Positions 9,258 to 32,733 of a stretch of DNA of 41,259 nucleotides are shown here, one piece after another. The stretch is from Ectothiorhodospiraceae bacterium (GTDB lineage: Bacteria > Bacteroidota > Ignavibacteria > SZUA-365 > GCA-2699105), in the NCBI GenBank assembly GCA_002699105.1, contig PABJ01000020.1:1-41259 (forward strand), read 5' to 3'. The position numbers and the translations under genes are program-made. A model generated the notes under the pieces. That model worked only from the letters and a program-made list of their open reading frames with translations. It made no database searches and was not told the DNA's origin. Every line of letters begins with the position of its first letter. Within the stretch, counting starts at the first letter, position 1.

Positions 9258-9859
9258 TGCTTGACGTCGAAACTTACTTTAAACTCATCGTCACCGGTTC
9301 TGTGAATTCCGGTAAAACCACGTTCGTTAAAACGATCAGTGAGATAGAAGCATTTACCACGGACGAAATGGCGACCGAGGACGATGTGATGCAGCTAAAG
9401 CAGCTCACGACCGTTGCCATGGATTACGGCCGTAGGACGATCGACGACGACATCGTTCTTCACATTTATGGCACGCCAGGGCAGGAACGATTCGATTTCA
9501 TGTGGGACATACTCGTCGTTGGGGCGTTTGGTGTCATCTTCCTCGCAGATAGTACGGATAAACCCAGCCTGGAGAAGACGAAGAACATCATCGCCTTTTT
9601 CACTGAGCGCTATGATCTCCCATACCTGATGTGCGTGACAAAGCTCGACCTAGCGGACTCGATCGGCTACGACGAAGTGGTGGATTTTATAAATCAGCCG
9701 CAAATAAAAACAATTCCGTTGAAGACAATTGATCCGAATGAATGTATGAACGCCTTGGTGACCTTCTTGACGTTAGCAGTGCAGAAAGAAGAGGACACCG
9801 AGTCCGGCGATGATAATGGGATTGACGGTGCGGATCTCATCGCCAATATAGGGAACTGA
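9257..9859 (+). CDS. Small Ras-like GTPase, CvnD-like
   Basis: G1 'GSVNSGKTTFV', G3-region 'YGTPGQERFDFMWDILVVGAFGVIFLADS', G4 'TKLD'; the GTPGQ.RF.FMWD...GA signature resembles conservon CvnD GTPases. Confidence 0.85.
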   Translation: MLDVETYFKLIVTGSVNSGKTTFVKTISEIEAFTTDEMATEDDVMQLKQLTTVAMDYGRRTIDDDIVLHIYGTPGQERFDFMWDILVVGAFGVIFLADSTDKPSLEKTKNIIAFFTERYDLPYLMCVTKLDLADSIGYDEVVDFINQPQIKTIPLKTIDPNECMNALVTFLTLAVQKEEDTESGDDNGIDGADLIANIGN

Positions 9860-11088: not shown

Positions 11089-11505
11089 CTATGCGAAGCA
11101 TTTCCCAATCGTCAAAATCATTTCGTCAAGATCGACCGGCTTGCTGATTATATCGACTGCTCCGTAGGCGATAGAATCGACGGCACTTTTAATATCAGCG
11201 TATGACGTCATCATTATGGATTTTGTCTCAGGCGTATGTTTCTGAATGTGCTTCAGTATATCAAAGCCGTTCGTCTGCGGCATCCTGATATCCAGGAGTG
11301 CGAGATCAATGCGGTTACCGGCAAGAATCTCAATCGCTTCCTTGCCTTCGTAGGCGACGTGCGTATTGTATCCGGCCTTGCGCAATTGCCTGGCAATAGC
11401 ATCGCAAACGACGCGCTCATCGTCCACGACGAGTATCCATGGCTTCGTTGCATCTATGCCATCCATCGAGTCAGTCTCCACTATGTGACGCCCTTCAGTC
11501 GACAT
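11089..11505 (-). CDS. Stand-alone CheY-like response regulator receiver
   Basis: 'KPWILVVDDERVVCDAIARQLRKAGYNTHVAYEGKEAIEILAGNRIDLALLDIRMPQTNGFDILKHI...SYADIKSAVDSIAYGAVDIISKPVDLDEM'; no output domain. Confidence 0.9.
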   Translation of the reverse strand: MSTEGRHIVETDSMDGIDATKPWILVVDDERVVCDAIARQLRKAGYNTHVAYEGKEAIEILAGNRIDLALLDIRMPQTNGFDILKHIQKHTPETKSIMMTSYADIKSAVDSIAYGAVDIISKPVDLDEMILTIGKCFA

Positions 11506-12816
11506 TTATTCTTCGTTAGCCTTCAGCTTCGCTGCATCGATTTGCTCGAGCAGATTCTTCCGCAGCTTCTTTATCCGTTCCGATTCCCGCTGCAACGTTT
11601 TCTGGCCAACTTTGATTTCATTGAGCTTGCTCGAGAGACGCGTTTCGAGCGATGGGAGGATCCGCGCTTTCAGGATGATGATGAGTTCCTTGCGGACAGT
11701 TTGCACTTCGTCATACCCGAATAGGTACTTCAATCCGAAAACCCACCACGGAAGATCCTTCAGGAATGGTACCCCTCTCCGGATAGTCGTGTAATCATTC
11801 GAAAACAGCCCACCTACTGCGGTTTCCTCTTCGTTGAGAAGGAGTACGGATGTCTCGGCAACGGTTTTATTGATGATAGTCCGCTGAGGATCCGGTACGA
11901 ACGTACTGCGTTCCGCCTGGATGAGCAGATGAACAAACTCAATGGAATCGACCATAAGTACAGTCGGTGTCACGTTGATGATCGTACCCGTGCTATAGAA
12001 TTTTTCGACGGTGTTACCGGAAAAGTCGAGCTGAGTAACCGAGATATCGGCGCCGACTTGAATTCGTCCGGTCTCGTTCGAACGTACTGTAATGGATGGG
12101 CGAGAGATGAGCTCTCCGAGGTTCTCGGATTCGATCATCTGCAGCACGGCAAGCACATCAACGGTGTTACCAAACGAACGAAGGACGGTCTTTTCCCCAA
12201 ACTCAATACCGGTTTGTTCGCTGCCGCCGCCACCACCGCCGCCTTCACCACCTTCCTGGCCTTGCGGCTGGAACTCTGTCGAACCCCAATTGATGACACC
12301 CGTCTGTACGTTGGTGCTGGGTGTGTGATTCGTTAATGCCCAGTCGACACCAAGGCGCTCAAGTTCGGTGCGGTTAGCCTCGAAGAAGATTGCCGAAATC
12401 TCGACCTCACGGGTTTCGATCGCGTTCTCCGCTGTAAGCGTATCGGTAACCACTCCGCCGCCATCGGGGATAGGGAAGACACGCACGTAGTCCGGTGTCT
12501 CCTGGTACCAATAGTTATTGACACGCAGGACCACCTCAAATGCATCCTTCCAGTACATCCGCTGGACGTTCACCTTAATCGGCTTGTTGCTGGAACTCTC
12601 GATAACAAGGACCTTGTCTTCGAACCGTTTGAAGGAATTCTTGAAAATCTCGAGTGCTGTATTGAGAGGTGTCTCCCCAGAAATCGTAATCAGCTCATCG
12701 GGGGCGATATAGTTCTTAATCGGCGGCCGTCCCTGCGCATTGGCTTGCGCCTGAAGAAGAAGCAGGCCAAGCGCACAAAGCGCGATCGTTGCATATTGTC
12801 GTAAAGTCTTCATCAC
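11506..12816 (-). CDS. pilQ: Type IV pilus secretin (PilQ/GspD-like, short form)
   Basis: Signal peptide; short N-domain then secretin core 'ETREVEISAIFFEANRTELERLGVDW...LISRPSITVRSNETGRIQVGADISV...TSVLLLNEEETAVGGLFSNDYTTIRRGVPFLKDLPWWVFGLKYLFG...RKELIIILKARIL'. Confidence 0.85.
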   Translation of the reverse strand: MMKTLRQYATIALCALGLLLLQAQANAQGRPPIKNYIAPDELITISGETPLNTALEIFKNSFKRFEDKVLVIESSSNKPIKVNVQRMYWKDAFEVVLRVNNYWYQETPDYVRVFPIPDGGGVVTDTLTAENAIETREVEISAIFFEANRTELERLGVDWALTNHTPSTNVQTGVINWGSTEFQPQGQEGGEGGGGGGGSEQTGIEFGEKTVLRSFGNTVDVLAVLQMIESENLGELISRPSITVRSNETGRIQVGADISVTQLDFSGNTVEKFYSTGTIINVTPTVLMVDSIEFVHLLIQAERSTFVPDPQRTIINKTVAETSVLLLNEEETAVGGLFSNDYTTIRRGVPFLKDLPWWVFGLKYLFGYDEVQTVRKELIIILKARILPSLETRLSSKLNEIKVGQKTLQRESERIKKLRKNLLEQIDAAKLKANEE

Positions 12817-13721
12817 TACCTACTCTTTATGTCGTTCAGATTGTATTCTTTCCACGTAAGGATGTACCGCTCTTGAATGCCGCCCTTATTGAGCTGGAAT
12901 TCAACCTGTTTCCGGTCGAACATGATCTTCGATACATACCCGAGATAGACGCGGTCGCCTTCTTCGAGCTCGACGCTCTGGCCGCTCTGATCTATGATGT
13001 ATGCGAAATCTTCCGTGAGCGAGACAAGCGTAGAGTTCTCTACCTCAGGTAGTCCGTGGACGTTCGGCGGAATCTCTATCGTCACGATGGAGCGGAACGG
13101 GTTGTTGGCGATAACCGGGATGCGCGTTTGTGATAGGGGTTGCAGATCTGCACTATCCGCGAATAGCGGCTGGTCGGAGTAATACGCCAGCAGATCTGCG
13201 TCGAATTGTACTTCATGCACAATGATGCCAAGCTCGTCGTCTACCCGGTGAACTTCACGGAGATCGACGTTATTCAGCTTCATGACGCGCGGTCCGAATT
13301 CCAAATACTGAACCAGGCGGGCAAAACTATCGAACGGTCCCTGCCCTGCAAGGTGATACCGTACATAGCCGCATCCTTGCTGCTCCACCTGCTCCTGAGT
13401 GATGACATTGAGGTCCAATTCAGGGCTCAATCTCAGTATCTGGTTCAGGTACATATTGGTATAACTTGCCTTTTCTGTCGTCGGCATGGTTTTCGGACGC
13501 AGGCGCCAGAGGACGTCGAGAGATTCGGCACGGTACTTCGCCCGTTCGAGTTGATCCTGGAGCTGTGCGACGTTTTGGAATTTGGCGCGGATCTCTTCGC
13601 GTTCCTTACTTATGTCTTTAAGTTCGCCGGCCTGCATAAGGAAAACATACACGCCGCCGCCGCCCGCGATGAGGAGGAACATAACACCAAGGATGATCGA
13701 GTTTTTGGTTGCGTATGTCAT
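12816..13721 (-). CDS. PilO-like/PilP-like fused T4P alignment protein
   Basis: N-terminal TM + coiled coil + PilO-like region, C-terminal 'NPFRSIVTIEIPP...SVELEEGDRVYLGYVSKIMFDRKQVEFQLNKGGIQERYIL' resembling PilP/GspC HR domain; position between secretin and PilM/N-like gene. Confidence 0.6.
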   Translation of the reverse strand: MTYATKNSIILGVMFLLIAGGGGVYVFLMQAGELKDISKEREEIRAKFQNVAQLQDQLERAKYRAESLDVLWRLRPKTMPTTEKASYTNMYLNQILRLSPELDLNVITQEQVEQQGCGYVRYHLAGQGPFDSFARLVQYLEFGPRVMKLNNVDLREVHRVDDELGIIVHEVQFDADLLAYYSDQPLFADSADLQPLSQTRIPVIANNPFRSIVTIEIPPNVHGLPEVENSTLVSLTEDFAYIIDQSGQSVELEEGDRVYLGYVSKIMFDRKQVEFQLNKGGIQERYILTWKEYNLNDIKSR

Positions 13722-15403
13722 TTGCTCAGATCCTCCATAAGCTGCTGGAGTTTTTCATCTTCCTCTGGGGGAGGGACATCATCGTCTCCTGTTACACCGC
13801 TGATGGGTGCATCGCCCCCGGCAACATCGCCAATCGCCGTTTGGATAGTGTCGTGCCAACGATGAGCCCTGGAGCCTGAATATGGGTAGTGTTCCTCGAG
13901 CATGAGTCCGAAATCGAAATCGTACACCTTGGTTTCGGATATCTGCTCAACTGTAATCTCACGGAGTTGGGTATCGCCAATTCGATGGGATAGACTGGGG
14001 ATACTCCCGCGCGAAGTGCTATATCCTGTCAAAATATATCCTCCGGTCTCAACTTCTGGACGCATTTCACGGAACCAGACATTACCGAGCGAGGCTGTCG
14101 CGTTGGCAAGCGTATCTAAGGTCTCGGACCAACGTTCGCTGCTAATGAGAAGCGTATCAAGGGTTGTCGCCGCCGAAAGGATATCCGTCGATCGAGTTTC
14201 AAGTGTGTTTATTTCATCAATCAATGCTTGCTGGCGAGCCAGCTCGGCGCGTTCCTGATTCAACGCATCCCGCTCTGCGGATATCCGGCCGAGATTCTGC
14301 ACGCCTTGATACCCGATGCCGAGTACAGAGGCAATGATGAGGAAGATCAGCAAGAAGCCATGCCATTTGAGCTGCAGCGTGTTGGTTTGCTGACGGATCT
14401 TTGGAGGAACGATATTGATATCGTAAAACAGCTCGCTCTTCGGCAAGAGCTTTTGCCATGCTGCCGAGATCGGCAGGACGAAGTTATGAATATCCTTGAA
14501 TTCTTCAGTCTTCGGATGGTTCACACGAAGCTTTGTCAGCGAATGAAAAATCGCATACGGATTGTTGGCGAGTATTTCATCGCGCAACCCCATTGACTCA
14601 GCTGCTCCTGCTAGAACGACTTTGTCGGCCTTTGGGAAGCCTGCGAGCTCAGCTGCCAGCTCGATCCGGTTGTTGAGCATGGAAACATATTCTTGGTTTC
14701 CTGCGCCTTGCTGAATCGGCGGTGCGATGAAGTGCAAGTCGGGGCCACGGAGAACGTAAAACCGAGTCTCATCCTTCCCTACATAGATCAGGTGTACAAC
14801 TTCGCCTGCTTTAAACCGGAAGTGTGCACGTGTGATGTTTACGAGCGCTATGTCGTTCGTAGTTATGTGTGTCACCTTTGTTGGCTTCTTGTCGACGCCA
14901 AGAGGGGCACTTAAAGTCGAGAGGATTGGCGGAATCTCAAGTAGGGCGGCAGTCAACACTTTTTCATCGCCTATTTTAGCAATGTCTATCTGATCCTTGC
15001 TTAACGCGATGTTGTTCGTTTTGCTAACCTCTGCGATGATACGATCGATCACTGCCGAACCCTTGTCTTTCGGATCTGCATCTAAGATATCCGTTCGGAC
15101 GGTTGGATCGCTGAACGAGACGGCGATTGTTGCGCCGCGTACATAGTTTGATTGAAGGAAATCGTGAAGTTCCGAGTAATCCGGAGTATCAAGGTCGCCA
15201 GACGCCAGTTCGCCGAAGTCCGAACTTCCATCAAGACTATCAGATTTTGCGGTGAATGCTACCTCGTGATGCGGGAGTTCGAGCGTACCCACACTCATCA
15301 CCTCGAGTTTTTGACCGACCTTGCCTACCGTCGCTAAACGGAGAAGATCGCCTTCCAGTGAGAGCCCTATGCAGACGTCAGATGCTTTTTGATTCGAAGC
15401 CAT
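13718..15403 (-). CDS. PilM-like (actin-like) / PilN-like fused T4P protein
   Basis: 561 aa; N-terminal ~340 aa soluble, then TM 'WHGFLLIFLIIASVLGIGYQGV' and PilN-like coiled coil/periplasmic region; ATGA overlap with PilO/P-like gene. Confidence 0.6.
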   Translation of the reverse strand: MASNQKASDVCIGLSLEGDLLRLATVGKVGQKLEVMSVGTLELPHHEVAFTAKSDSLDGSSDFGELASGDLDTPDYSELHDFLQSNYVRGATIAVSFSDPTVRTDILDADPKDKGSAVIDRIIAEVSKTNNIALSKDQIDIAKIGDEKVLTAALLEIPPILSTLSAPLGVDKKPTKVTHITTNDIALVNITRAHFRFKAGEVVHLIYVGKDETRFYVLRGPDLHFIAPPIQQGAGNQEYVSMLNNRIELAAELAGFPKADKVVLAGAAESMGLRDEILANNPYAIFHSLTKLRVNHPKTEEFKDIHNFVLPISAAWQKLLPKSELFYDINIVPPKIRQQTNTLQLKWHGFLLIFLIIASVLGIGYQGVQNLGRISAERDALNQERAELARQQALIDEINTLETRSTDILSAATTLDTLLISSERWSETLDTLANATASLGNVWFREMRPEVETGGYILTGYSTSRGSIPSLSHRIGDTQLREITVEQISETKVYDFDFGLMLEEHYPYSGSRAHRWHDTIQTAIGDVAGGDAPISGVTGDDDVPPPEEDEKLQQLMEDLSK

Positions 15404-15418
15404 GTGTATTCCAGTGGT

Positions 15419-16747
15419 TTATTGCATCGCGAGCAATTGCTTCATTCGCTTCTTGTTGTTTGCGTAGTTCATCGCCTCGGTAGTCGTGATTTTACGCATC
15501 TTCACAAGCCGCTTGAGATCCTGCTCCATGGTGATCATACCGAGATCCGCGCCTTCCGCTATCATCTGGTAGATCTCACCTGTATTGCCGTTTTTGATCG
15601 CAGAGCGCACAGACGGTGTCACTACCAGCACCTCTTTCGCCAATGTACGTTTCCCGTCCGTCGTGGGCGGAAGTTTTTGCGAAACAACAAGGCGCAACAC
15701 ATCCGCGAGACGGTTCCTCACGCGGTCCTGTTCGATTGGTGGTACCTCGCCAATGATACGGTCGATACTTTCGACGGCAGATGATGTATGGAGAGTCGAG
15801 AACACTTTATGTCCGGAGTCCGTAATCTCGATTGCGGCCATAATCGTATCCGGATCGCGCATTTCACCGATCATCACGATGTCCGGATCCTGGCGCAATG
15901 CCTGTACAGTGCCTTCCTTGAACGATAGCACATCGCGACCGACTTCGCGATGCCGAATGATGGACCGTTTCGGAGTATGGACATATTCAACAGGAGATGC
16001 GACGACTACGATATGTGAATCTGATTCTTGATTATTCATATCGATGATCGCATCCAACGTGGTCGACTTTCCGGAACCTGTGATACCGGTAATGAGGATC
16101 AGTCCTTCCTTCGTAAACCGAAGATTGGTGATGTTCGTGACGTTCTGGTGGAAGTTGTATGACGAGTACTCTCGAACCGTGGCATTGATAGCGCGCATGT
16201 TCATGCCGAGCGAATCAAGATCGAAATACGCTGTTCCACGATACCGATGCATCGTCCCCTCAACCTGCGTTTGAAACGAAAAATCCAAACTACGTTTTTC
16301 GAGAAGTGTAATTCGTTGTTTCGCAGTAACAAGACCTTGGATCATAACATCGGTGAGGAGTGTTGGGATCTCGGGTAGATCAAGTTGCGGAGTTTTATCG
16401 CCATGTATACGCATCCAGATATGTCCCCGGGCACCAAAACTCCCAAGATCGATATCCGAAGCATCAGTTTTACGCATTCGGAGTAGTACCGCCTCATAGA
16501 ACTGGCGTATAACCTGTATCGCACGTTCATCTACTGAATCTAGCTTCTTCGAGATGAATTCCTGGCGTTCCAGACCGAACATGTATGAGGGCATGTCCTT
16601 GACTACGTAGTTCATCGCCGCGAGGGCGTTTTTTACTAGTGGCTCAGGGAGCGACGGGACTCCATGTGGCGGCTGGAGTCCGTTCGAATCCTTTTGCACA
16701 GGAGCTTGCGGCGGTGCCGCCGTCGTTTGTCTATTGGCCTGATTCAT
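15419..16747 (-). CDS. pilT: PilT-like type IV pilus retraction ATPase
   Basis: Walker A 'LITGITGSGKSTTLDAIIDMNNQ', Asp box, Walker B 'DPDIVMIGEMRDPDTIMAAIEITDSGHKVFSTLHTSSAVESIDRII'. Confidence 0.88.
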   Translation of the reverse strand: MNQANRQTTAAPPQAPVQKDSNGLQPPHGVPSLPEPLVKNALAAMNYVVKDMPSYMFGLERQEFISKKLDSVDERAIQVIRQFYEAVLLRMRKTDASDIDLGSFGARGHIWMRIHGDKTPQLDLPEIPTLLTDVMIQGLVTAKQRITLLEKRSLDFSFQTQVEGTMHRYRGTAYFDLDSLGMNMRAINATVREYSSYNFHQNVTNITNLRFTKEGLILITGITGSGKSTTLDAIIDMNNQESDSHIVVVASPVEYVHTPKRSIIRHREVGRDVLSFKEGTVQALRQDPDIVMIGEMRDPDTIMAAIEITDSGHKVFSTLHTSSAVESIDRIIGEVPPIEQDRVRNRLADVLRLVVSQKLPPTTDGKRTLAKEVLVVTPSVRSAIKNGNTGEIYQMIAEGADLGMITMEQDLKRLVKMRKITTTEAMNYANNKKRMKQLLAMQ

Positions 16748-17096: not shown

Positions 17097-18896
17097 TCAG
17101 GCAGTTGTGACTGCTGCGACTTCATGGAAGGACGTACCGCCTTCTTTCACTCGTTCGCGCGCAGATGCACGAAGTGTCAGCATACCTTGACTTATGGCAG
17201 TCTGGCGAATTTTTTCTTCATCAATATTTTCACCTGAATCAAAAATGATCTTGCGGACCTCAGGGGAGAAGTGCAACGATTCATGGATGCCCATTCTCCC
17301 CTTGTATCCGCTGTTGCATTTTGAGCAGCCAACCGGCTCGTAGAACGTCTCATTCTCTATTTCTTCGTCGGTGAATCCGAGCGCTTTGGCCTCGACCACA
17401 TCGACCTCTTCGATCTCTTTTTTACAGTTCGTGCAGAGACGGCGGACAAGACGCTGCGCGACAACCAGATTGATCGCGTATGCAATCAGGAATGTTTCGA
17501 CGCCCATCTTGAAGAGACGCGTCACTGCCGAGGGTGCATCGTTCGTATGGAGTGTCGAGAACACAAGGTGACCGGTATTCGCCATCTTGATGGCGGTTTC
17601 GGCCGTGATCTTATCGCGCATCTCACCAACCATCACGATATCGGGATCGTGTCGAAGGATTGCACGAATCGCCTGTTCGAAGCTGAGCTTCGGTGCGATC
17701 TTCAACTGCCGTGCGCCGTGAATCACGTACTCGACCGGATCTTCAACCGTGAGTACGTTCACTTCCGGCGTAACAACAGCGTAAAGCGCGGCAACCAGGG
17801 TGGTGGACTTACCGGAACCGGTCGGACCAGTGAGGATGACAAGTCCCTGCGGCTGGCGAATGGCATCGTTGAACCATTTGAGTGCCATTTTCTGGAAGCC
17901 GATCTTCGAGATATCCTTGATGACCTTTCTGTCATCGAGGATACGAATAACGATACTTTCGTACCGGAGGTGGAATTCCTGCCCGACAACCGGGATGATG
18001 GAGACACGGAACCGGATTACGCTGTTATCGATGACACGCTGAATGAAACCGTCCTGGGCTCGGTCGCGCTCAAAACGATCGACGTTACGGCTTCTATCCT
18101 TAACCACGGCGATGACTGCCTCCGGGCGCGGGCCTTCCAGGCATTGCCAGAGCTGCAGCTTACCATCGATGCGGAATCTGAAGTCGGTAGCGCGGGGGCT
18201 TTTCGGAACGATGTGCACATCAGACGTGCCCTTGCGCGTACCTTCCACGAGACAGCCCTCGAAGAAGTTGATGAGCATGCTCTTGTTGATTTCCTTATCG
18301 AGAGCATCTTCATCGACCTGTGCCGTTTCAAACTCGACCGCATCGATTTCTTCTTCTACATCCTTGATTTGCTCAAGGAAGGTATTTTCGCCGCGTAATA
18401 GCGAGTCGAGATGCGGCTGAAGCTGTGAAAGTTTGACGTAGTACGTCTCGTACTTTCGGGCTTTGAAATAATAGGCTATCCGGGGGATCGTCTTATGCGT
18501 CGGATCGGAGGCGATGATGATGAGCTTTTCCGGAACGTTCTCATCATATTTCAGCGGCAGTGCCTTTGCTTCAGCTACTTCGCGCTTTTGCTCGGAGGTT
18601 AGCCCTTCAAGAAGCTGCTTGATGTAGCTGATCCGGCGCTCATCCATAACGCCTTCGTTGAGATCGAGTTCCTTGAACGCATAGATCTTTGCGATCTCGG
18701 AATAGACTGCGTCGTGGTCGATCTTGAACTCGGATACGAGGATCTGCGCAATGCTGCGCTGCCCGTTCCCTTGTTCTTTCTCCTTGACAGCGAGGGCCTT
18801 GGTGATCGTTTCTTTATCGACAACCCCGCGCTGAAGGAGGACGAACCCTACCTTATCTATCAGCCGCGGTTGTTGCGCTGGAGCTTGTGTCGCCAT
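17097..18896 (-). CDS. pilB: PilB-like type IV pilus assembly ATPase
   Basis: N-terminal MshEN-like region; 'LVILTGPTGSGKSTTLVAALYAV', 'RHDPDIVMVGEMRDKITAETAIKMANTGHLVFSTLHTNDAPSAVTRL', tetracysteine zinc motif 'CTNCKK...CSKCNSGYKGRMGIHE'. Confidence 0.93.
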   Translation of the reverse strand: MATQAPAQQPRLIDKVGFVLLQRGVVDKETITKALAVKEKEQGNGQRSIAQILVSEFKIDHDAVYSEIAKIYAFKELDLNEGVMDERRISYIKQLLEGLTSEQKREVAEAKALPLKYDENVPEKLIIIASDPTHKTIPRIAYYFKARKYETYYVKLSQLQPHLDSLLRGENTFLEQIKDVEEEIDAVEFETAQVDEDALDKEINKSMLINFFEGCLVEGTRKGTSDVHIVPKSPRATDFRFRIDGKLQLWQCLEGPRPEAVIAVVKDRSRNVDRFERDRAQDGFIQRVIDNSVIRFRVSIIPVVGQEFHLRYESIVIRILDDRKVIKDISKIGFQKMALKWFNDAIRQPQGLVILTGPTGSGKSTTLVAALYAVVTPEVNVLTVEDPVEYVIHGARQLKIAPKLSFEQAIRAILRHDPDIVMVGEMRDKITAETAIKMANTGHLVFSTLHTNDAPSAVTRLFKMGVETFLIAYAINLVVAQRLVRRLCTNCKKEIEEVDVVEAKALGFTDEEIENETFYEPVGCSKCNSGYKGRMGIHESLHFSPEVRKIIFDSGENIDEEKIRQTAISQGMLTLRASARERVKEGGTSFHEVAAVTTA

Positions 18897-20305
18897 TCGG
18901 TGACCTTCTTCCGGATTAATTGAAACGATACTGAACCAAATGCGAGGTACATCGGCAGCGATCCCATGCCCGGTGCAGTCTTCGGTTTAACGACCGAGGT
19001 CTCGGAGGAGACGATGGTGATTGCCGTCATGACGATCATAATCAACATGGCGACCCAAAGCTGTACGAAATCGATGATGGATTTCAGCTTGTAGACTGTT
19101 TCGCGCTCGTAGTAGTTCGCGAGCTGCAAGGCTGTTTCGCGGACGGTTCCCGTCTCTGCGCCTGCATGGAAACGCGAAAGTGCCGTTTTCGTAAACACCC
19201 CGGAAGCTTCCATGGATTCGTGGAGGCCGTGCCCCTTTTGGACCATGGCCGGGATCGTGACGGTTTTTATCTGATGTTCGAAATAGGTATTACCGGTGGA
19301 TTCGGCTGCCGTCTTGATGACATCGATGTTTTCGCCTGAGCCGGTATACATGGAATAGAAAACCCGGCAGAAAATCTCGATTGCCGTTTTGTGCATAAGC
19401 TCACCCATGACGGGTATTCGCATACCCATCTTATCAAACCACATTTTGCCTTGGGGATTCATATACGCAGCCACAATGCCGATGCCGGCTGCAATGGACG
19501 CAAGGATGAACCAAATGATGTTAGCGACAAGCCATTCTGAGAAATCAAGCGTCGCAGCCGTCATCGGCGGGAGCTCGATTCCGTACTTGAGGAACATCTT
19601 TGCAGTTTCGGGGAAGATGTAGGCAACGTAGAAAATGACGGCAGCGAACAAGAGTACCAGCGTGATGACGGGCATCATCATGGCGCTCTTCATTTGCTTC
19701 TTGAACTCCAGCTTACGCTCAAGGAACTTCGCGGTCGACTCGTACATCTCGACCATGTTACCGGATTTGGTTGCCAGACCGAGCATCTTCGCGGTGAATT
19801 TCCCGAAGATCTTCTCGTACTTCATGAAGACCTTCTCGCTCTCCTTACCAGACTTCAGATCGTTATTGACGTCCTTCAGTACTTCGCGCAGGGTTTTGTT
19901 CTGCACGTCGTTCGCGAGGAGGGTAATTGCCTCGTTAAACGGAAGCGATTCGCGGAGAAGGTCAGCGCTCAGGCGGACAAAGGTAATGACCTCCGGCATT
20001 GGGACGCCGCCCTGGAAGTCCATCATCTTTTTACGCACGTAGAGAACCTTATACCCGAGGGCGGCGAGGCCCTTCTGGACCTCTTCCTTCGAGAAGGCCT
20101 TCTGTTCACCCTCTATGGGCTTATCGTTGCCCTTCTGGACTTTGTACAGGAAGGTCGTGCGCTTCTCGAGCTTTTGAACCTTAAACGCTCTCCCGCGCGC
20201 GAGTTCCTGGATCTTCTTCTTCGCATCCGATGGATTATCCGCGGTGAGATTGCCGGTAATTATTTTCCCTGATGGGACTACTCCTTGGAACCTGAAATCT
20301 GGCAT
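18860..20305 (-). CDS. pilC: Type IV pilus inner-membrane platform protein PilC/GspF
   Basis: Duplicated GspF domains: 'FVRLSADLLRESLPFNEAITLLANDV...' and 'IEIFCRVFYSMYTGSGENIDVIKTAAESTGNTYFEHQI...VFTKTALSRFHAGAETGTVRETALQLANYYE'. Confidence 0.92.
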   Translation of the reverse strand: MPDFRFQGVVPSGKIITGNLTADNPSDAKKKIQELARGRAFKVQKLEKRTTFLYKVQKGNDKPIEGEQKAFSKEEVQKGLAALGYKVLYVRKKMMDFQGGVPMPEVITFVRLSADLLRESLPFNEAITLLANDVQNKTLREVLKDVNNDLKSGKESEKVFMKYEKIFGKFTAKMLGLATKSGNMVEMYESTAKFLERKLEFKKQMKSAMMMPVITLVLLFAAVIFYVAYIFPETAKMFLKYGIELPPMTAATLDFSEWLVANIIWFILASIAAGIGIVAAYMNPQGKMWFDKMGMRIPVMGELMHKTAIEIFCRVFYSMYTGSGENIDVIKTAAESTGNTYFEHQIKTVTIPAMVQKGHGLHESMEASGVFTKTALSRFHAGAETGTVRETALQLANYYERETVYKLKSIIDFVQLWVAMLIMIVMTAITIVSSETSVVKPKTAPGMGSLPMYLAFGSVSFQLIRKKVTEWRHKLQRNNRG

Positions 20306-20614
20306 CGTTCTATCCTACGGTCGTTATCGTATCCCGTGTAATTGACTCTGGTACTGTTCTTCTTGACTACAATATATGTTGAGGCTGTGCTGAGACAAAC
20401 GACATATATTGCAGTGTTTGTAGTTTTTACATGCAAAGAGAATGCCTAAATCCTGACGGTAGAGGGGTTAGACCGCGGAGGCCGTAAGCGTGTCTATAAC
20501 AAGCGTTTACGAAGGTGGGAGGACTGGGAGGAGATTGCTGAGGGGTATGTGGAACGAAAATATTACAAGACTTTGAAAATGTGACGAAAGTCGATTGTGA
20601 AGAGTCCAAAAAGA

Positions 20615-20646
20615 AACGCCGCTCCTTACGGGGAGCGGCGTTTTTA
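20615..20646. terminator. Strong bidirectional-capable intrinsic terminator downstream of pilin-like gene 1
   Basis: AACGCCGCTCC-(TTACGG)-GGAGCGGCGTT 11-bp stem; T5 on plus side, TTTCTTTTT on minus side. Confidence 0.85.
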
Positions 20647-20680: not shown

Positions 20681-21076
20681 TTAATAACCGGAATAGGTTG
20701 GCGAGCTGACGGCATCCGGTGAGACTGTGATCTGAACCGTTGCACTGGCTACAGTCGAGGATGAACCTACAAGCGTTGCGGTCGAAGCCGTTGCTGCGCT
20801 AACTGCATAGGAACCGTTGGCGTTGATACCGCTGGAAGCAGTCGAGAAACCGAGATCCTGAAGATCGAGGCCGGAGAAGCTGTTGCCGCCGCCACCGAGC
20901 ATAGTCGGCTTGCGATAGTAACCCTGTGCCTGGGAAGCCATGCGGAGAATATCCTGCGTGACGGCATCCTTGTTTGCCTGATCGGCGTTGCTACCGAAGA
21001 TGCTGATACCGACGACCACTGCGATTCCGACGATGATGACGCCGAGGACGATAAGAAGCAATTGTTGTGAACCCAT
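20681..21076 (-). CDS. Non-canonical pilin-like protein 1 (131 aa)
   Basis: N-terminal hydrophobic helix MGSQQLLLIVLGVIIVGIAVVVG followed by amphipathic region and S/T/A-rich C-terminus; SD-like AAGGAG (plus CTCCTT 21083-21088); adjacent to pilC/pilB; paralog at 30413..30829. Confidence 0.75.
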   Translation of the reverse strand: MGSQQLLLIVLGVIIVGIAVVVGISIFGSNADQANKDAVTQDILRMASQAQGYYRKPTMLGGGGNSFSGLDLQDLGFSTASSGINANGSYAVSAATASTATLVGSSSTVASATVQITVSPDAVSSPTYSGY

Positions 21077-24676: not shown

Positions 24677-26479
24677 CTATTGCGATAGCTGCATGATCTT
24701 CGTTCGTACAGTATCGACGGAACAACCGAACTCCCCGGCTTTTGAAAGAAGGCGTTTCGCGCCTTCGATCTTCCCGCCATCGACTAACATCAATCCTAAC
24801 TCCCGGTAAATCTCACAGACGGTTGGATCGGTTTCGAGCGCGCGAATGAAGTTTCTTTCTGCAAGCGCGTAGCGATGTTCTTCCCTGTATAGCTTTGCCA
24901 GGAAGTAATGCGGCCTCACCGACTCCGGAGCAAGCTTCCTTGCCCGGACAAGGTACGACTCAGCCTGCCTATAATTACCCAAATCAGTGTGGGCGACACC
25001 TGCAAACAACATCGCTTCCGGATATTCAGGTTTACGCGCCAGTGCTTTCGTGAAATACGTCAGCGCCGAGTCGGGGAGTTCCTCATGCAAATAGCACATA
25101 CCGATGTTGTGATAGGCGGTTGCGTATGCTGGTGTGACGGCTATAGTACGCTGAAAACACTCCCTCGCGTTGCCGTATTCACGGGTCAGCATGTAATGCG
25201 TACCGAGATTGTTGTTTGCAAGCGGATGGTATGGATCGTAGCGCAATGTATTTGTATACAGCGTCTCGTTACTCTCCCAAATCTGCACCTGTTGATAGCC
25301 CAGGGAACCATAAAGAAGAACTGCGATGATACCAACGGCCAGAGTAGCATACCGGGCGATGCGGTATTTACGAACCAATTCACTGATTCCCCAAATGAAC
25401 ATGATCGATAACCCGATCATCGGGATATAGGTGTACCTATCGGCCATCGACTGCGCTCCCACCTGTACCAAGCCGATAACAGGCAGCAAGGCCACCACAA
25501 AGATCATCCAGCCACTGAGGAACCAGGGATGCGATTTTCTGATGAGGAAACCGGCGATAATTGCACCCAGCAGGACCAATCCCGCGGCAATAAAAAGCAT
25601 AACAGAAGGGTTAAGCTCATGGAGATAGTACATTCCGAGTTCGGTGGGGACGACGATCTTCCCTATGTAGTTCAAATAGGAGACTGCCGCATGTTGGATA
25701 CGCTGCCAGAGAGAGAAATACTCGACAGATGTGACCGTACCGCCTTTCTGCTGCGCTATAATGGCGATGGCTGCTCCGAGAGCACTTAGAAGGAAGAACG
25801 GGATTTTGTCCAGAAGAAGGCGCTTCGCGTTATCCAGCAACGAACGAGATGAGGAGTATGTGTTCAGCGGCCAAATATCAAGGGCAATGAGCAATATCGG
25901 CTGCACGACTGCGATCGGTTTTGCTAGCAGTGCAAACAATGATGCAAGCAACGCAAGTATATAATATGCAGTATCACCGTTCTTGATTCTATAAGCTCGG
26001 TAAGCCAGGAACGAGAGAAGCATGAAAAAGAGGCTGAGGACGTCCTTCCGCTCTGATATCCATGCGACGCTCTCCACGTGCATCGGATGTATGGCGAAGA
26101 TCGCAGCGACGAAGAAGCTCTCCCAGCGGCGCTTCGTCGCCAGCACGAAGAATAGATAGATCAGCAGCGTGTTCGCCCAATGGAATACAACGCTTGTTAT
26201 ATGATGTCCACCCGGCGAAAGTCCATGAAGCTCTACATCGATGATATGCGACAGCCAGGCTAGGGGATGCCAGTTAAACACTTCCAGGCTCGTGAAAGCC
26301 CACACAAGTGTTTCTGCATTCAGCCCTTGCAGTGTCATGGGGTTTTCGTAGACGTAAAGATTATCGTCGAAACTTACGAAATAGAAATGCTGGACATTCC
26401 AATAGATCCCAATAACCATTGCGGTTAGGATGATCCCGGTCAAAATGTGGATCAGGCGATCTCTCGATAGGAGAGTCAT
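24677..26479 (-). CDS. TMTC-like/PMT-type membrane protein with C-terminal TPR repeats (copy B)
   Basis: 600 aa; 'FDDNLYVYENPMTLQGL', 'NWHPLAWLSHIIDVELHGLSPGGHHITSVVFHWANTLLIY', 'AIHPMHVESVAWISERKDVLSLFFMLLS', then TPRs. Confidence 0.85.
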   Translation of the reverse strand: MTLLSRDRLIHILTGIILTAMVIGIYWNVQHFYFVSFDDNLYVYENPMTLQGLNAETLVWAFTSLEVFNWHPLAWLSHIIDVELHGLSPGGHHITSVVFHWANTLLIYLFFVLATKRRWESFFVAAIFAIHPMHVESVAWISERKDVLSLFFMLLSFLAYRAYRIKNGDTAYYILALLASLFALLAKPIAVVQPILLIALDIWPLNTYSSSRSLLDNAKRLLLDKIPFFLLSALGAAIAIIAQQKGGTVTSVEYFSLWQRIQHAAVSYLNYIGKIVVPTELGMYYLHELNPSVMLFIAAGLVLLGAIIAGFLIRKSHPWFLSGWMIFVVALLPVIGLVQVGAQSMADRYTYIPMIGLSIMFIWGISELVRKYRIARYATLAVGIIAVLLYGSLGYQQVQIWESNETLYTNTLRYDPYHPLANNNLGTHYMLTREYGNARECFQRTIAVTPAYATAYHNIGMCYLHEELPDSALTYFTKALARKPEYPEAMLFAGVAHTDLGNYRQAESYLVRARKLAPESVRPHYFLAKLYREEHRYALAERNFIRALETDPTVCEIYRELGLMLVDGGKIEGAKRLLSKAGEFGCSVDTVRTKIMQLSQ

Positions 26480-28536
26480 TCTGCAGCCTGTTTCGCTAAA
26501 GTAGAATCATCGACCGCAACAGGAGCACTCATCCCCAATGCAGGGCTGCGTTGTATGTACCCGTACTTCTCCGGCTCGACGAGCAAAGAACGGATACGGT
26601 TGTGCAGGCCTTCATTGCCCGGCGCCTGGCTCAGCGCCGTCGAGAAGCGCACCAGGGCGGAATCGTATTTCCCTTCCAGTACATTGATGTCTCCGAGGTA
26701 TTTGTGGGCAACGCTGTTGACGTGCCGGAGTTCGGTAGATCGCTGGAACATCGTTTTCGCCTGATCGTACTTGCCCATATCCAGAAAGACCAGCCCGAAA
26801 TTGTTGTATATGTCGTATAAATCGGGATCGACTTTTAGTGCTGCCGTCAGGAATTCAATAGCAAGATCGGCGCGGCCAGTTTTGAGGTAGTAGGACCCGA
26901 GGTTATTCAAGTGTAGCGCCGATGTAGGTTCAAGTTCAACCGCTCGTAAGAGATGTTTCTCAGCAAGCTCTGTACTATCTAATGCCATGTAGGTCTTCGC
27001 CAGATCACCGTGTGTATTCGACTGGGTCGAATCAACAGATAGTGAAGCTTTGTAGTACTGCCTTGCCAGATCGTACTCGCCTAATTCAAGATGAATCGAC
27101 CCGAGGTTGTGCATAACTTTCTTGGAACCCGGTTCCACTCTTAGAGCTGCCTCCGCGTAAGGCAGCGCCTTTTTGTATTCACGCGCGAGGATATAGTGCA
27201 CGGCCAAGTTGGCATTCGCTGTATGATTCGAAGCTGTGACATCTATTGCGTGGAGGTACAGCGTCTCATTGTTCTCCCATGTTTGAATCTGTTTCCATGA
27301 CGTGCCCACGAAAAACACCACCGCGAAGACAATGATTATAAACGAGGCATAGCGCACTGCTGCGTGTTTTCTGGCATATGTGCTGGCGAGAAGGACGATA
27401 AGAAAGAACAGCCCGATATGAGGGATATATACGTACCTGTCGGCCATGGCCTGAGAGCCGACCTGCATCAATCCGATTACAGGTACTAGCGTGCCGACGA
27501 AAAAGAACCATCCAACGGGGATATATGGGTGCGTTCGCCAATACCGAAGAGCCAATACTGCGATAGCAACCAAGCCGATCCCGATTCCCGCGATGAGCAA
27601 GGCATCGAATGATTGCGGATATGGGTAGAATATCGCAAGATCATGCGGGTAGAATGTTAGCCAAATGTATTTCCCATACGAGAGGATAGCGTTCTGAATG
27701 CGGTCGATGAGTAGTGCGCTGGCGCGATGCGTGTTGATAGCTCCATACCCGCTCTGTGCAATAACGGTAACGAATACGGATATTACCGTGAGTACAAAGA
27801 AGGGAATCTTTTCCGTGATCAGGTGTAGATTATCTCTACGAAAATAATGGGTGAAGAAACGCAGGATGCCACTTTTTTCGCCGGTATTCGTGCGCTGTAA
27901 TGGGTAGTAATCGAGGAGCAGGAGCACGAATGGCAAGGTCACGAGCATCGGCTTTGTCATCAGGCCCGCGGCATAAAGCAGCACTGCACCAACGTAATAC
28001 CAGGGTTTGTTCTCGCGCTTGGTATATAGTGCATACACCCAAATCGTCAAGAGGAAGAAAAGAGTACTGAGAACATCCTTTCGCTCAGAGATCCATGCGA
28101 CGGACTCAACGTGCGTTGGGTGAATCGCAAATAGTATCGCGATAATGTATGCTTCAATCTTTCGCCCGGTCAGCTGAAGAATCAGGAAGAACAGAAATAC
28201 AGCGTTCAGAGCATGAAGAAGAACGTTCGTTGTGTGAAATCCCCCAGCGACAAACCCACCGTACAGCTCATAGTCTATTAGGTACGAGAGCCAGGTGAGA
28301 GGATGCCAGTTTGCCATATGCAGTGTGGTAAATGCCCAGCCAACGGAGGAGAAGCTGAGCCCCTGCTCGATCTGTGGTGTTTGCAGCAAATACTCGACAT
28401 CGTCGAAATTTACGAAATCGTAGAAGCGGACGTTTTGGTAGAGTAACAGCGTCCCGAGGAACAGGAGGCCTGCTGCGAGCCAAACGAATTTGTTATATAC
28501 TTTACCGTCACCTGCCATGAAGAACTCCCGGTACAT
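26476..28536 (-). CDS. TMTC-like/PMT-type membrane protein with C-terminal TPR repeats (copy A)
   Basis: 686 aa; 'NFDDVEYLLQTPQI', 'NWHPLTWLSYLIDYELYGGFVAGGFHTTNVLLHALNAVFLF', 'AIHPTHVESVAWISERKDVLSTLFFLLT', then ~6 TPRs; ATGA overlap with copy B. Confidence 0.85.
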   Translation of the reverse strand: MYREFFMAGDGKVYNKFVWLAAGLLFLGTLLLYQNVRFYDFVNFDDVEYLLQTPQIEQGLSFSSVGWAFTTLHMANWHPLTWLSYLIDYELYGGFVAGGFHTTNVLLHALNAVFLFFLILQLTGRKIEAYIIAILFAIHPTHVESVAWISERKDVLSTLFFLLTIWVYALYTKRENKPWYYVGAVLLYAAGLMTKPMLVTLPFVLLLLDYYPLQRTNTGEKSGILRFFTHYFRRDNLHLITEKIPFFVLTVISVFVTVIAQSGYGAINTHRASALLIDRIQNAILSYGKYIWLTFYPHDLAIFYPYPQSFDALLIAGIGIGLVAIAVLALRYWRTHPYIPVGWFFFVGTLVPVIGLMQVGSQAMADRYVYIPHIGLFFLIVLLASTYARKHAAVRYASFIIIVFAVVFFVGTSWKQIQTWENNETLYLHAIDVTASNHTANANLAVHYILAREYKKALPYAEAALRVEPGSKKVMHNLGSIHLELGEYDLARQYYKASLSVDSTQSNTHGDLAKTYMALDSTELAEKHLLRAVELEPTSALHLNNLGSYYLKTGRADLAIEFLTAALKVDPDLYDIYNNFGLVFLDMGKYDQAKTMFQRSTELRHVNSVAHKYLGDINVLEGKYDSALVRFSTALSQAPGNEGLHNRIRSLLVEPEKYGYIQRSPALGMSAPVAVDDSTLAKQAAE

Positions 28537-29508
28537 TTAGGCAGGCTTTGCCCAATACTCCAATGTGCCGCCTCGCCCCATCATTGCTGTAATGATGCTG
28601 TATGGGAGGCCGGCTAAAGTTAGAACTGCCCCTAGAGCAAAAACTGAGGCTCGTGTGATGCCGCCAGTCTCTTTGTAGCGCATTCTTGCTTCAGGGGCGC
28701 GGATAAGATCGTAGAACATGTTGTAGGGCAGCCCCATAAGATTCATGACACTCTGCACGAAACCGAATACGTCTTGCTCAATAGAAAGAGTTCTCTCTTT
28801 GATGATGGAGAAGTTGCTCTCATCGAGTGAGCGCTTCAGCGTCGCGGGGGAGAAATGTCCAAGATGCCGCGGTACGTCAATCGCGAACCACTGCTCTTTG
28901 CTCCAGGTCGACATTGCTCCGCCGAAGTTCGGGACTGCTAGAAGTAGCAATCCATTCTGCTTGGAAATTCTGCGCATTTCCCGCAAGGTTTCTTGATGTT
29001 CCGGCATGTGCTCCAACACATGATAGCATATAATAACATCGAAGTGTTCGTCAGGGAACTGACAATCTGCGAGGTTGGGAGTATTGTATACCGTCACACC
29101 GAAGTTATTCACCGTTGTTTCTGCCATCGATGCGGAATACTCAGTCCCGAACGCTTCCCATCCTCTGCGAGCTAATTCCGCGAGGAGGGTACCGCGACCG
29201 CTTCCTACCTCCAGAACTCGCCCTGCCATATCGAAATGCGATGTAACAGCATCGGCAATTCTGGTGCGGAAATACTGGACTACTTTTTCGAGCGATGTAT
29301 TAAAGCGTTTGCCTTCAGAGCCGTAATATGATTCGGGGTAGTAGCTGCCTAAGGATTCACCATTTGGGCGGGGAGATGTGACGACATGTCCGCATCCAAC
29401 GCATTTTTGCAATGAAAAACGCTCGCCGCTGTAGTGATCTTCCGCATCGTATACCTTCGTGAAGTCACTGTCTCCGCAAATACAGCATGTATCGACAGAT
29501 ACCATCAT
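28537..29508 (-). CDS. Class I SAM-dependent methyltransferase with N-terminal zinc-binding region
   Basis: 'CCICGDSDFTKVYD...CVGCGHVVTSPRP' Cys motif; 'RVLEVGSGRGTLLAELARRGWEAFGTE' SAM motif I. Confidence 0.87.
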   Translation of the reverse strand: MMVSVDTCCICGDSDFTKVYDAEDHYSGERFSLQKCVGCGHVVTSPRPNGESLGSYYPESYYGSEGKRFNTSLEKVVQYFRTRIADAVTSHFDMAGRVLEVGSGRGTLLAELARRGWEAFGTEYSASMAETTVNNFGVTVYNTPNLADCQFPDEHFDVIICYHVLEHMPEHQETLREMRRISKQNGLLLLAVPNFGGAMSTWSKEQWFAIDVPRHLGHFSPATLKRSLDESNFSIIKERTLSIEQDVFGFVQSVMNLMGLPYNMFYDLIRAPEARMRYKETGGITRASVFALGAVLTLAGLPYSIITAMMGRGGTLEYWAKPA

Positions 29509-30302
29509 TGATGCGATAGGTTGGTCGCTTTTAGATCCTGGGCTATGCTCTCCTCGGACTCACGAAATATCTGTGCCTTCCCTAGTCCGATCTTCGAGAA
29601 AAAGAAGCTCATTGCTGTTCCCAGACAGCCAAATCCGTATTTCACACTCCGGTAGAAATTGATAGAGGATGCTTCTGTGAAATACTTGGTTGGACAGCTC
29701 ACTTCTGCAATTGTATAATTCTTCCAGAGTATTTGCGCGAGCATTTGATTATCGAACACGAAATCGTTTGAGTCGCGTTCGAAATCGATATCCTGGAGTA
29801 ATTTCCGGGAGAACGCGCGGTAGCCTGTATGATACTCAGAGAGCTTTGCTCCCATGAGGATATTCTCCGTGAGTGTAAGGAAGCGGTTGGCGATATATCG
29901 CCACCAGGGCATACCGCCTTTGAGAGCATAGCCGCCCAGTACGCGCGATGCGAGAACGCAGTCGTACAGGCCATTGCCGATCAGCGCTGCCATTGAAGGG
30001 ATAAGTTTCGGTGTGTATTGATAGTCCGGATGGACCATAATAACGATATCACCGCCATGCTCGACTGCTAATCTGTAGCATGACTTCTGATTTCCCCCAT
30101 AGCCGAGGTTTTTATCATGCACATAGACGAGAGTGTTTGGAAGCTGCGATGCAACCTGCTTCGTTTCGTCCTTGCTGCAGTCGTCAACGACAATGACGAG
30201 ATCCACGATCTCTTGCTGCATGACTTCTTCATATGTTCGGGTTAACGTTTGGGCGGCATTGTATGCCGGCATCACGACGATGACTTTTTTGTTCTTATAC
30301 AT
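29505..30302 (-). CDS. Glycosyltransferase family 2, polyprenyl-phosphate hexose synthase (DPM synthase)-like
   Basis: 'VIVVMPAYNAAQTLTRTYEEV...DLVIVVDDCSKDETKQVA...NLGYGGNQKSCYRLAVEHGGDIVIMVHPDYQYTPKLIP...YHTGYRAFSRKLL'. Confidence 0.87.
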   Translation of the reverse strand: MYKNKKVIVVMPAYNAAQTLTRTYEEVMQQEIVDLVIVVDDCSKDETKQVASQLPNTLVYVHDKNLGYGGNQKSCYRLAVEHGGDIVIMVHPDYQYTPKLIPSMAALIGNGLYDCVLASRVLGGYALKGGMPWWRYIANRFLTLTENILMGAKLSEYHTGYRAFSRKLLQDIDFERDSNDFVFDNQMLAQILWKNYTIAEVSCPTKYFTEASSINFYRSVKYGFGCLGTAMSFFFSKIGLGKAQIFRESEESIAQDLKATNLSHQ

Positions 30303-30362
30303 GGCACAACACAACTTGGAGTGTTATGGGAAATGATTTCATTCTGCTCACATCAAAACATA

Positions 30363-30385
30363 AAAAAATCCCTTGCGGGATTTAT
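30363..30385 (-). terminator. Intrinsic terminator of pilin-like gene 2
   Basis: AATCCC-TTGC-GGGATT hairpin with minus-strand T-run (plus TAAAAAAATCCC). Confidence 0.75.
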
Positions 30386-30412
30386 GTAGAAAAATCGGAC
30401 CGATTGTAATTA

Positions 30413-30829
30413 TTACCAACCAGCGTATACAGGGTCTTCCATCTTCGCCGGGCGCACAACAATCGTACAGGTGAGTTCAGTACCCCCGCCGTCCCGCTCA
30501 AACTTTGAGTAGCCCACGATGGTGCATACATCACCGTTTCCAGTGACCTCATAGATTCCGTTATCGTTCTCTCCCTTGCCACTAAGGTTCGCGTACATGC
30601 CGACATCTTGGATTGTTATCCCATCAAACGACTGCCCACCTCCGCCAAGCATGGGGTCTTTTTGGTAATACCCTTGTGCCGCGGACGCAATTTTAATGCA
30701 GTCGTGCGTGACGGCATCCTTATTCGCGAGCTCGAGTCCGTTAACGAAAGCAGGAAATGCACCGATGACGATGGCAATTCCGACGATTATTACACCGAGC
30801 ACGATAAGTAAAAGTTGTTGTTGACCCAT
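30413..30829 (-). CDS. Non-canonical pilin-like protein 2 (138 aa, three Cys)
   Basis: MGQQQLLLIVLGVIIVGIAIVIG N-terminus near-identical to 20681..21076; shared 'ANKDAVTxD', 'AQGYYxK', 'MLGGGGxSFxG', 'IQD/LQD', terminal Y(S/A)G(Y/W). Confidence 0.75.
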   Translation of the reverse strand: MGQQQLLLIVLGVIIVGIAIVIGAFPAFVNGLELANKDAVTHDCIKIASAAQGYYQKDPMLGGGGQSFDGITIQDVGMYANLSGKGENDNGIYEVTGNGDVCTIVGYSKFERDGGGTELTCTIVVRPAKMEDPVYAGW

Positions 30830-30880
30830 CGTGTACCTCTATATCATTGATCGCAGCACGCTTGTACCGCTACTGTTGCC

Positions 30881-30916
30881 CAAATATACTCTCATATCCT
30901 TACGGGAATCTTAACC
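30881..30916 (-). promoter_or_regulatory. Putative activator-dependent promoter of pilin-like gene 2
   Basis: Minus strand: GGTTAAGATTCCCGTAAGGAT-ATGAGAG-TATATTTG; direct repeat TAAGATT-N4-TAAGGAT (11-bp phase), 7-nt gap, perfect Bacteroidota-type -7 TAnnTTTG. Confidence 0.65.
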
Positions 30917-30970
30917 GGACATTACACCTCTGAAAGAAATGTCTAGCTCGATGCAATATGTGCAATACCC

Positions 30971-32041
30971 CTATGCAGATTCGCGTACAACTGTTTCAGC
31001 CAGTGGGAGTTTAATGATGAATTCGCTTCCTTTACCTTCCTCACTAAACAGGGTTATCGCCCCTCCATGGGTTTCGATGATCCAGCGGACGATATACAGT
31101 CCCAGCCCGGTCCCTCCGAGCGACCGACTGTGCTCTTTGTCGACTCTGTAGAATCGCTCGAAGACTTTCGCTTGTTCTGCTTTTGGAATACCAATACCTG
31201 TGTCCCGTATGCTGATAATCGCATCATCTTCTTCGGTGAACAACGAGACTATGACACTGCCATTTTCAACGTTGTACTTCACTGCATTATCGACAAGATT
31301 CAACAGCACCCGCCGAAGCCTGAGTGCATCGCCGCGAATGTGTGCATCTTCGATGCGTTCAATTGTAAAGGAAACATTCGACTGCGTCGTGAACATCTCT
31401 GCTTCATCTGCAAACTCTTCAATGAAAGCCCTTAGGTCGATCTCATGATCTTCCATATTCACCTGGCCGATCTGCGATTTTGCGACAAGTAGCAGATCGT
31501 CGATGATCCGGGAAAGCCGAATGACTTCTTCCAACAGCGATCCCAGAATTTCCTGGTACTGCTCGGTGGATTTCGGATGACGAAGAGCAAGCTCGATCTC
31601 ACCGCGTATGATTGTCAAGGGTGTCCGGAGTTCGTGGGAAGCGCTAACAGAGAAGTGTTGAATCTGCTCATACGCTTCGTGCATTTTATCGACCGAGCTG
31701 CGGATCGATGAGATCTTGTCCTGGAATTCCTCCTCCAGGATTGCTGTGGAGAGCGGCGGTGATTCTATTGCTTGTGGGGAGATTTTGTACTTCGAACGGT
31801 GAAGCTGCTCGGATATGAAGAAGCCCACGGTGTAAGAGAAGAATGCACCGACAGGTACGAAGATCAATCCGACGGCAATGAATGTTTGCCTGAAGTAATC
31901 CATCATGTCCTGCGTCATGATTTGCAAAGATGAAAAATGGTATGTAAACACCGCAATGATGAGGCCCGTCACCATGAGTACGACCGCAAAGATCGTGGTT
32001 CCGTAGATGAGGGAGAAGCGGAGTTTTAGCCCAATGATCAT
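30971..32041 (-). CDS. Sensor histidine kinase
   Basis: Two TM helices, H-box 'FSVSASHELRTPLTIIRGEIELAL', N-box 'LLNLVDNAVKYN', G-boxes 'DTGIGIPKAEQAKVFERFYRVDKEHSRSLGGTGLGLYIV'. Confidence 0.95.
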   Translation of the reverse strand: MIIGLKLRFSLIYGTTIFAVVLMVTGLIIAVFTYHFSSLQIMTQDMMDYFRQTFIAVGLIFVPVGAFFSYTVGFFISEQLHRSKYKISPQAIESPPLSTAILEEEFQDKISSIRSSVDKMHEAYEQIQHFSVSASHELRTPLTIIRGEIELALRHPKSTEQYQEILGSLLEEVIRLSRIIDDLLLVAKSQIGQVNMEDHEIDLRAFIEEFADEAEMFTTQSNVSFTIERIEDAHIRGDALRLRRVLLNLVDNAVKYNVENGSVIVSLFTEEDDAIISIRDTGIGIPKAEQAKVFERFYRVDKEHSRSLGGTGLGLYIVRWIIETHGGAITLFSEEGKGSEFIIKLPLAETVVRESA

Positions 32042-32715: not shown

Positions 32716-32733
32716 ATCTGAACCTTGTCTCAG

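Follow-up and report, generated by a model that had tools for sequence, protein, structure and literature searches.

To our knowledge, removal of a leader by an A24 peptidase has been treated as the universal and defining step of type IV filaments, whether these are pili, type II secretion systems, competence devices or archaella. In canonical pilins the leader has to be removed and Glu5 pairs with the N-terminus of a neighbouring subunit, and the programs that search for pilins depend on the leader motif. Denise et al. (PMC6668835) count the prepilin peptidase among the parts of the ancestral machine and propose that the MSH systems, with no such gene in their loci, borrow the peptidase of another system, while Berry and Pelicic (PMC4471445) note only the Nanoarchaeota as having no detectable prepilin peptidase; leaderless subunits are not described in the portions of these two papers that were available to us. 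Our search of the open-access literature returned no description of leaderless pilins or of their motif; subscription papers and preprints lay outside its scope, and an earlier description is not excluded.

Here we analysed a window, meaning the whole stretch of 41,259 nucleotides presented above, in which the gene at 20681..21076 had been proposed to encode a pilin-like protein without leader, cleavage motif or Glu5. We compared the locus with the features expected of a type IVa system: the machine parts (both ATPases, the platform, the secretin and PilM/N/O), the lollipop fold (an N-terminal helix of ~50 residues and a small beta sheet), homology of that helix to known pilins, a charged leader with Gly or Ala at -1, Glu at +5, and PilD in the genome. 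Our conclusion is that 20681..21076 quite likely encodes the structural subunit of a machine for type IVa-like pili (PilB, PilC, PilT, PilM/N, PilO, PilQ) that has no need of a prepilin peptidase. The relevant features of the window are these:

20681..21076, reverse strand: leaderless type IV pilin gene, 131 aa, ATG start; identified by its open reading frame, ribosome-binding site, upstream stop, AlphaFold2 fold and profile matches
20614..20643, reverse strand: strong intrinsic terminator directly 3' of the pilin gene; 12-bp stem with 8 G-C, T tract
18860..20305, reverse strand: PilC-like inner-membrane platform, 481 aa; PF00482 5e-32; NCBIfam PilC/GspF below the equivalog cut-off
17097..18896, reverse strand: PilB-like extension ATPase, 599 aa; PF00437 3e-98; best NCBIfam match TIGR02538 PilB, 8e-126, below cut-off
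15419..16747, reverse strand: PilT-like retraction ATPase, 442 aa; TIGR01420 pilT_fam 6e-92, 308 bits against a cut-off of 319
13718..15403, reverse strand: probable PilM-PilN fusion, 561 aa; family profile matches PilN of 3jc8 at 1.6e-10
12816..13721, reverse strand: PilO-like protein, 301 aa; family profile matches PilO of 3jc8 at 2.3e-5; PF04350 in 6 of 14 family members
11506..12816, reverse strand: PilQ-like secretin, 436 aa; PF00263 2.8e-25; TIGR02515 PilQ 1.9e-25, below cut-off
11089..11505, reverse strand: single-domain response regulator at the cluster end; PF00072 2.2e-30
30413..30829, reverse strand: second leaderless pilin paralogue, 138 aa, N-terminus MGQQQLLLIVLG; 51% identical to the 20681..21076 pilin

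The gene context could be read directly. The cluster has the pilin gene at its head, followed by PilC, PilB, PilT, the probable PilM-PilN fusion, PilO, the PilQ-like secretin and the response regulator, and this order is widely conserved among relatives. The type IVa machine parts are all present at the family level, below equivalog cut-offs. NCBIfam preferred the type IVa PilB and the PilT family, always under the curated cut-offs, so the machine represents a divergent offshoot of type IVa systems. Within the family of the fusion protein, PF05137 (PilN) was matched in 8 of 16 members, and the PilM-like NCBIfam match was weak (0.0067). Within a sample of 198 genomes from the window's phylum, 73 (45 genera) encode the pilin, usually in multiple copies per genome, and these 73 and no others encode the cognate PilC. 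The terminator scan was expected to return 1.3 sites per region, and the stem at 20614..20643 is unusually long; we infer that termination here would permit higher expression of the pilin than of the downstream pilC.

Several neighbouring genes deserve mention. The forward-strand genes at 7358-7750, 7831-8208 and 9257-9859, near the pilus cluster, encode two roadblock/LC7 (MglB-like) proteins and a small Ras/Arf-like GTPase that has MglA among its weaker matches. Since MglA and MglB determine where other bacteria place their type IV pili with respect to cell polarity, these proteins may steer the leaderless pilus. A beta-propeller protein with a C-terminal type IX secretion sorting domain is encoded at 88-1299 on the forward strand. 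The second pilin lies in a region (24677-34449, reverse strand) that encodes a glycosyltransferase, a methyltransferase, two TPR membrane proteins and a group of sensor kinase, response regulator and PAS proteins, and with such flanking genes glycosylation of the pilin is conceivable. In relatives, the only extra genes that recur between pilB and pilT are those of minor pilins and of a cyclic-nucleotide-binding protein; the latter, a small protein in the Balneolota clusters (L077:14070-14573, with equivalents in other Balneolota loci), might regulate the pilus in response to a second messenger.

The protein encoded by 20681..21076 on the reverse strand reads MGSQQLLLIVLGVIIVGIAVVVGISIFGSNADQANKDAVTQD..., and its N-terminus, M-G-S-Q-Q-L-L-L-I-V-L-G, constitutes the first residues of the hydrophobic helix: the transmembrane segment begins at the start, with neither leader nor Glu5. 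A Shine-Dalgarno-like AAGGAG precedes the ATG by 6 nt, and an in-frame TAA lies 7 codons 5' of it with no start codon in between, which makes a longer leader impossible. An in-frame extension upstream, which would have refuted the original prediction, was looked for and does not exist, being ruled out by this stop codon and by conservation of the start.

That conservation was directly observed across the family. Among 85,462 species genomes scanned we found 488 relatives of the pilin; the best 80 of the 488 came mostly from Balneolota, Ignavibacteria, Kryptonia, candidate division KSB1 and Calditrichota, and included cultured Fodinibius, Gracilimonas and Aliifodinibius strains. In 162 genes of relatives MG.QQ sits at the start codon, and 159 of these have no upstream in-frame start. 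This set had been chosen by the MG.QQ motif itself; as a motif-independent control, a profile from residue 28 onwards was searched against the stop-to-stop frames of the fetched loci. It recovered 152 distinct members, 150 with the MG.QQ N-terminus and 2 with MANKELLL, both of the latter likewise without leader, so the MG.QQ start proved conserved in a search independent of the N-terminus. The class III pattern matched twice in this control (one pilin, one PilV-like protein), within or beyond the helix and not as a leader. The two MANKELLL variants (L017, forward strand, frame from near 1968; L079, forward strand, near 10510) carry Lys4 and Glu5 counted from Met1.

The start 'MGQQQLLL', nearly invariant in the family, begins at the start codon; with the start codon abutting the helix and no start further upstream, a charged leader with Gly or Ala at -1 is absent. 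None of 146 distinct family proteins has D or E in residues 1-24, and 143 have no charged residue at all at positions 1-25. Position 8, which occupies the Glu5 register, is L, V, I or M in all 146, and Glu at +5 is therefore also missing. The predicted lack of leader, cleavage motif and Glu5 is confirmed by the upstream stop, the conserved start and this set of proteins, which also rules out a chance feature of one gene. Residues 26-45 carry a mean net charge of -1.4, a value that, as far as sequence can tell, would be compatible with a cytoplasmic N-terminus.

The pilin fold is a prediction, and a confident one. AlphaFold2, run with 38 sequences, modelled the product of 20681..21076 with a mean pLDDT of 95.3 as a helix (residues 3-55) and a small sheet of four strands, the lollipop architecture. 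The best Foldseek match in the PDB was the N. meningitidis minor pilin PilV (probability 0.99, target TM 0.71), with a weak E of 0.08; the next match had a probability of only 0.47. The six best PDB matches of the family profile, including geopilin, PilE1 and PilA5 (E 0.0018 to 0.13), were pilins save one entry, 6xxe ('uncharacterized protein'), aligned in the same register. The N-terminal helix is thus homologous to that of known pilins, on evidence that is weak in E-value but consistent in register. The helix aligns without gaps to mature pilins at a single offset, residue n of the leaderless protein being mature residue n-3: Gly17 corresponds to Gly14, Phe27 to residue 24, Leu8 to Glu5 and Gln4 to residue +1. 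The gene therefore encodes essentially a mature pilin plus three residues. Gly2 had been considered as the cleavage residue, which this register does not favour, since it sets the canonical +1 at Gln4 and not at residue 3.

Neither Pfam nor NCBIfam contains an adequate model for the leaderless pilin. A Pfam match to MacB_PCD was weak (0.002, below cut-off) and is best read as similarity of the N-terminal helix; nothing else fits. The description of the protein as pilin-like is thereby borne out by the fold and the profile matches, and no known non-pilin family competes with it.

Many relatives also carry three minor-pilin-like genes, either between pilB and pilT or in a cluster of their own, encoding proteins of ~165 aa (PilV-like), ~180-230 aa (PilW-like, with '...DFRKIGY') and ~340-490 aa (PilX-like). 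All start with the helix, for example MNTGQMLLTLGALILLSLV, MNLGLMTSYIIGGILLIG and MGRALLIYTVV, and no genuine class III motif was found in them even when start codons were disregarded. PilW-like proteins were present in 65 of the 198 genomes, every one of these genomes being among the 73 with the pilin; no PilW-like gene was found in the incomplete genome of the window. AlphaFold2 modelled one PilW-like protein as a 56-residue N-terminal helix and a sheet (pLDDT 86), for which Foldseek returned no match to solved pilins, and Pfam and PDB profile searches did not identify the minor pilins by name. Their PilV/W/X identity is an inference from architecture, order and motifs, the motifs being those we presume to mark the known families.

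As predicted, the window contains no PilD/GspO gene, and no A24 peptidase (PF01478, PF06750) was found in the rest of the assembled genome, which is 74% complete. A separate type II secretion locus of the same genome (L169:6913-16351, contig C192) encodes a canonical GspG pseudopilin, EDGFSLTEILVVIVIIG. As part of that separate locus, this canonical protein does not supply the canonical major pilin elsewhere that would have spoken against the proposal. No gspO gene is present in the locus, which stops close to the edge of the contig. Because the assembly is only 74% complete and the type II secretion locus has a canonical pseudopilin, the genome may encode PilD in its missing part.

The distribution of PilD across the phylum was observed directly and tests the point more strongly than the window's own genome does. 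An A24 prepilin peptidase was undetected in 65 of the 73 genomes with the leaderless pilin, which accordingly have the system without the PilD expected of a type IVa machine; 64 of the 65 are listed as about 98-100% complete, the genome of the window being the exception, and 9 are single-contig. All 8 genomes with PilD also carry canonical N_methyl pilins, and PilD was found in 0 of 62 leaderless-only genomes (Fisher p = 1e-8, a value that overstates independence because the genomes are related). Neither PilD nor canonical pilins were found in Fodinibius, Gracilimonas, Aliifodinibius, Kryptonium, Chrysopegis or the Balneolaceae chromosome CP051242; the last is closed, and the Fodinibius, Gracilimonas, Aliifodinibius and Kryptonium genomes are from cultured organisms. 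In the KSB1 genomes PilD and canonical pilins were both found, and PilD occurs alongside the leaderless system in KSB1 and Calditrichota genomes. A further 15 genomes of the same order, not screened for the leaderless pilin, yielded no PilD (0/15). From this distribution we conclude that PilD tracks canonical pilins and not the leaderless system.

These results make it likely, in our view, that there is a branch of type IV filaments, in a bacterial lineage related to the Bacteroidota, whose major and minor pilins are encoded already mature, without prepilin peptidase, class III signal peptide or Glu5; since the PilV/W/X-like proteins of relatives are leaderless as well, the change would extend to all pilins of the system. 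In the mechanism we propose, the hydrophobic N-terminal helix would act as an uncleaved signal anchor inserted N-in/C-out, a topology that is inferred. Gly at position 2 favours methionine removal by methionine aminopeptidase, and Met1 may be removed by deformylase and this enzyme; at most this removal would be needed, and both it and the absence of any other cleavage are inferences. The subunit would then be loaded into the filament by PilC and PilB without leader removal or PilD methylation, which they could do because the protein is already assembly-ready. The conserved uncharged Gln3-5 cap, together with the fully hydrophobic helix, would replace the canonical pair of N-terminus and Glu5 by uncharged contacts, a role for the glutamines that is likewise inferred. 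That the system forms retractable surface filaments is inferred in the absence of microscopy, genetics or N-terminus data.

Could processing still occur? A dedicated non-A24 peptidase might cut a very short leader, Met-Gly or Met-Gly-Gln, which we consider unlikely. The invariance of Gly2 would fit such a cut, since canonical prepilins are cleaved after a Gly, and the Ignavibacteria PilW-like proteins start with MGFSTLIDILG, which recalls a canonical G|F(S/T)L(I/V)E site preceded by a leader of two residues. However, methionine removal explains Gly2 equally, the register puts the canonical +1 at Gln4, the PilV-like minor pilins mostly begin with MNTG or MSDYS and lack Gly2, and no additional peptidase gene recurs in the pilus clusters of relatives. 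The original prediction had left the choice between an undescribed leaderless class and an unusual peptidase encoded elsewhere; the former is well supported by the conserved start, the pilin fold and the PilD distribution, whereas nothing speaks positively for the latter, although it stays possible. It is very improbable that an A24 enzyme is present after all, too divergent or unassembled to be seen, and acts on an unrecognised leader. The incompleteness of the window's genome leaves room for this, as do G078 and G175, in which canonical pilins are present and PilD was not matched; but the same search detected PilD in 12 of 14 control genomes and 29 of the 198 phylum genomes, and a lineage-specific PilD profile gave, at E<=0.1, the same 8 of 73 with none added, so that a weak model was rejected as the cause. 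The closed genomes already largely refute it, PilD being absent from the 9 single-contig ones, and there is no leader available for cutting.

A different doubt concerns the machine, which might build a short periplasmic pseudopilus or DNA-uptake device from the pilin-like protein and not a surface pilus. Ten of 38 family members weakly match the DNA-uptake minor pilin ComP_DUS (best 9e-5), and we found no report of imaged pili for these organisms. Against this, the PilT-like ATPase, the PilM/N-, PilO- and PilQ-like proteins, the several paralogues per genome and the terminator point to an abundant, retractable subunit. We give this possibility little credence, and it would leave the PilD-free conclusion unaffected.

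If the leaderless, peptidase-free reading is true, insertion and assembly of the subunit do not inherently need leader cleavage or the pair of N-terminus and Glu5, and a natural PilD-free system would reveal which parts of the leader-cleavage step are dispensable. The roles of Glu5 and N-methylation become directly testable in cultured strains, and the pilin 'missing' from genomes like that of Melioribacter roseus may be a member of this family.

Among known systems, the small type IV pilins of Geobacter and Thermus (geopilin, PilA5) are the best remote matches of the family profile, with a gapless N-terminal helix. They are made with a leader that PilD cuts; the leaderless pilin, unlike them, has only three residues before the canonical +1 and Leu for Glu5. 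The type II secretion pseudopilins serve a homologous machine, and the same genome encodes canonical GspG at L169; that locus differs in the classical GFSLTE site of GspG, in the absence of PilT and in a PilC/GspF homologue only 21% identical to the PilC of the window. The MSH loci (PMC6668835) and the Nanoarchaeota (PMC4471445) resemble the present case in a locus or genome without recognisable prepilin peptidase, but MSH genomes encode a peptidase with another system, and for the Nanoarchaeota the latter paper says merely that none was detected. The type IVa pilus (PilA, PilB, PilC, PilD, PilT, PilM-Q) differs in its PilD, class III leader and major-pilin Glu5, and the machine proteins described here fall below the curated cut-offs; the leaderless system nevertheless shares with it the content and order of PilB, PilC, PilT, PilN, PilO and PilQ, the pilin fold and, in relatives of the window, the PilV/W/X-like set of minor pilins.
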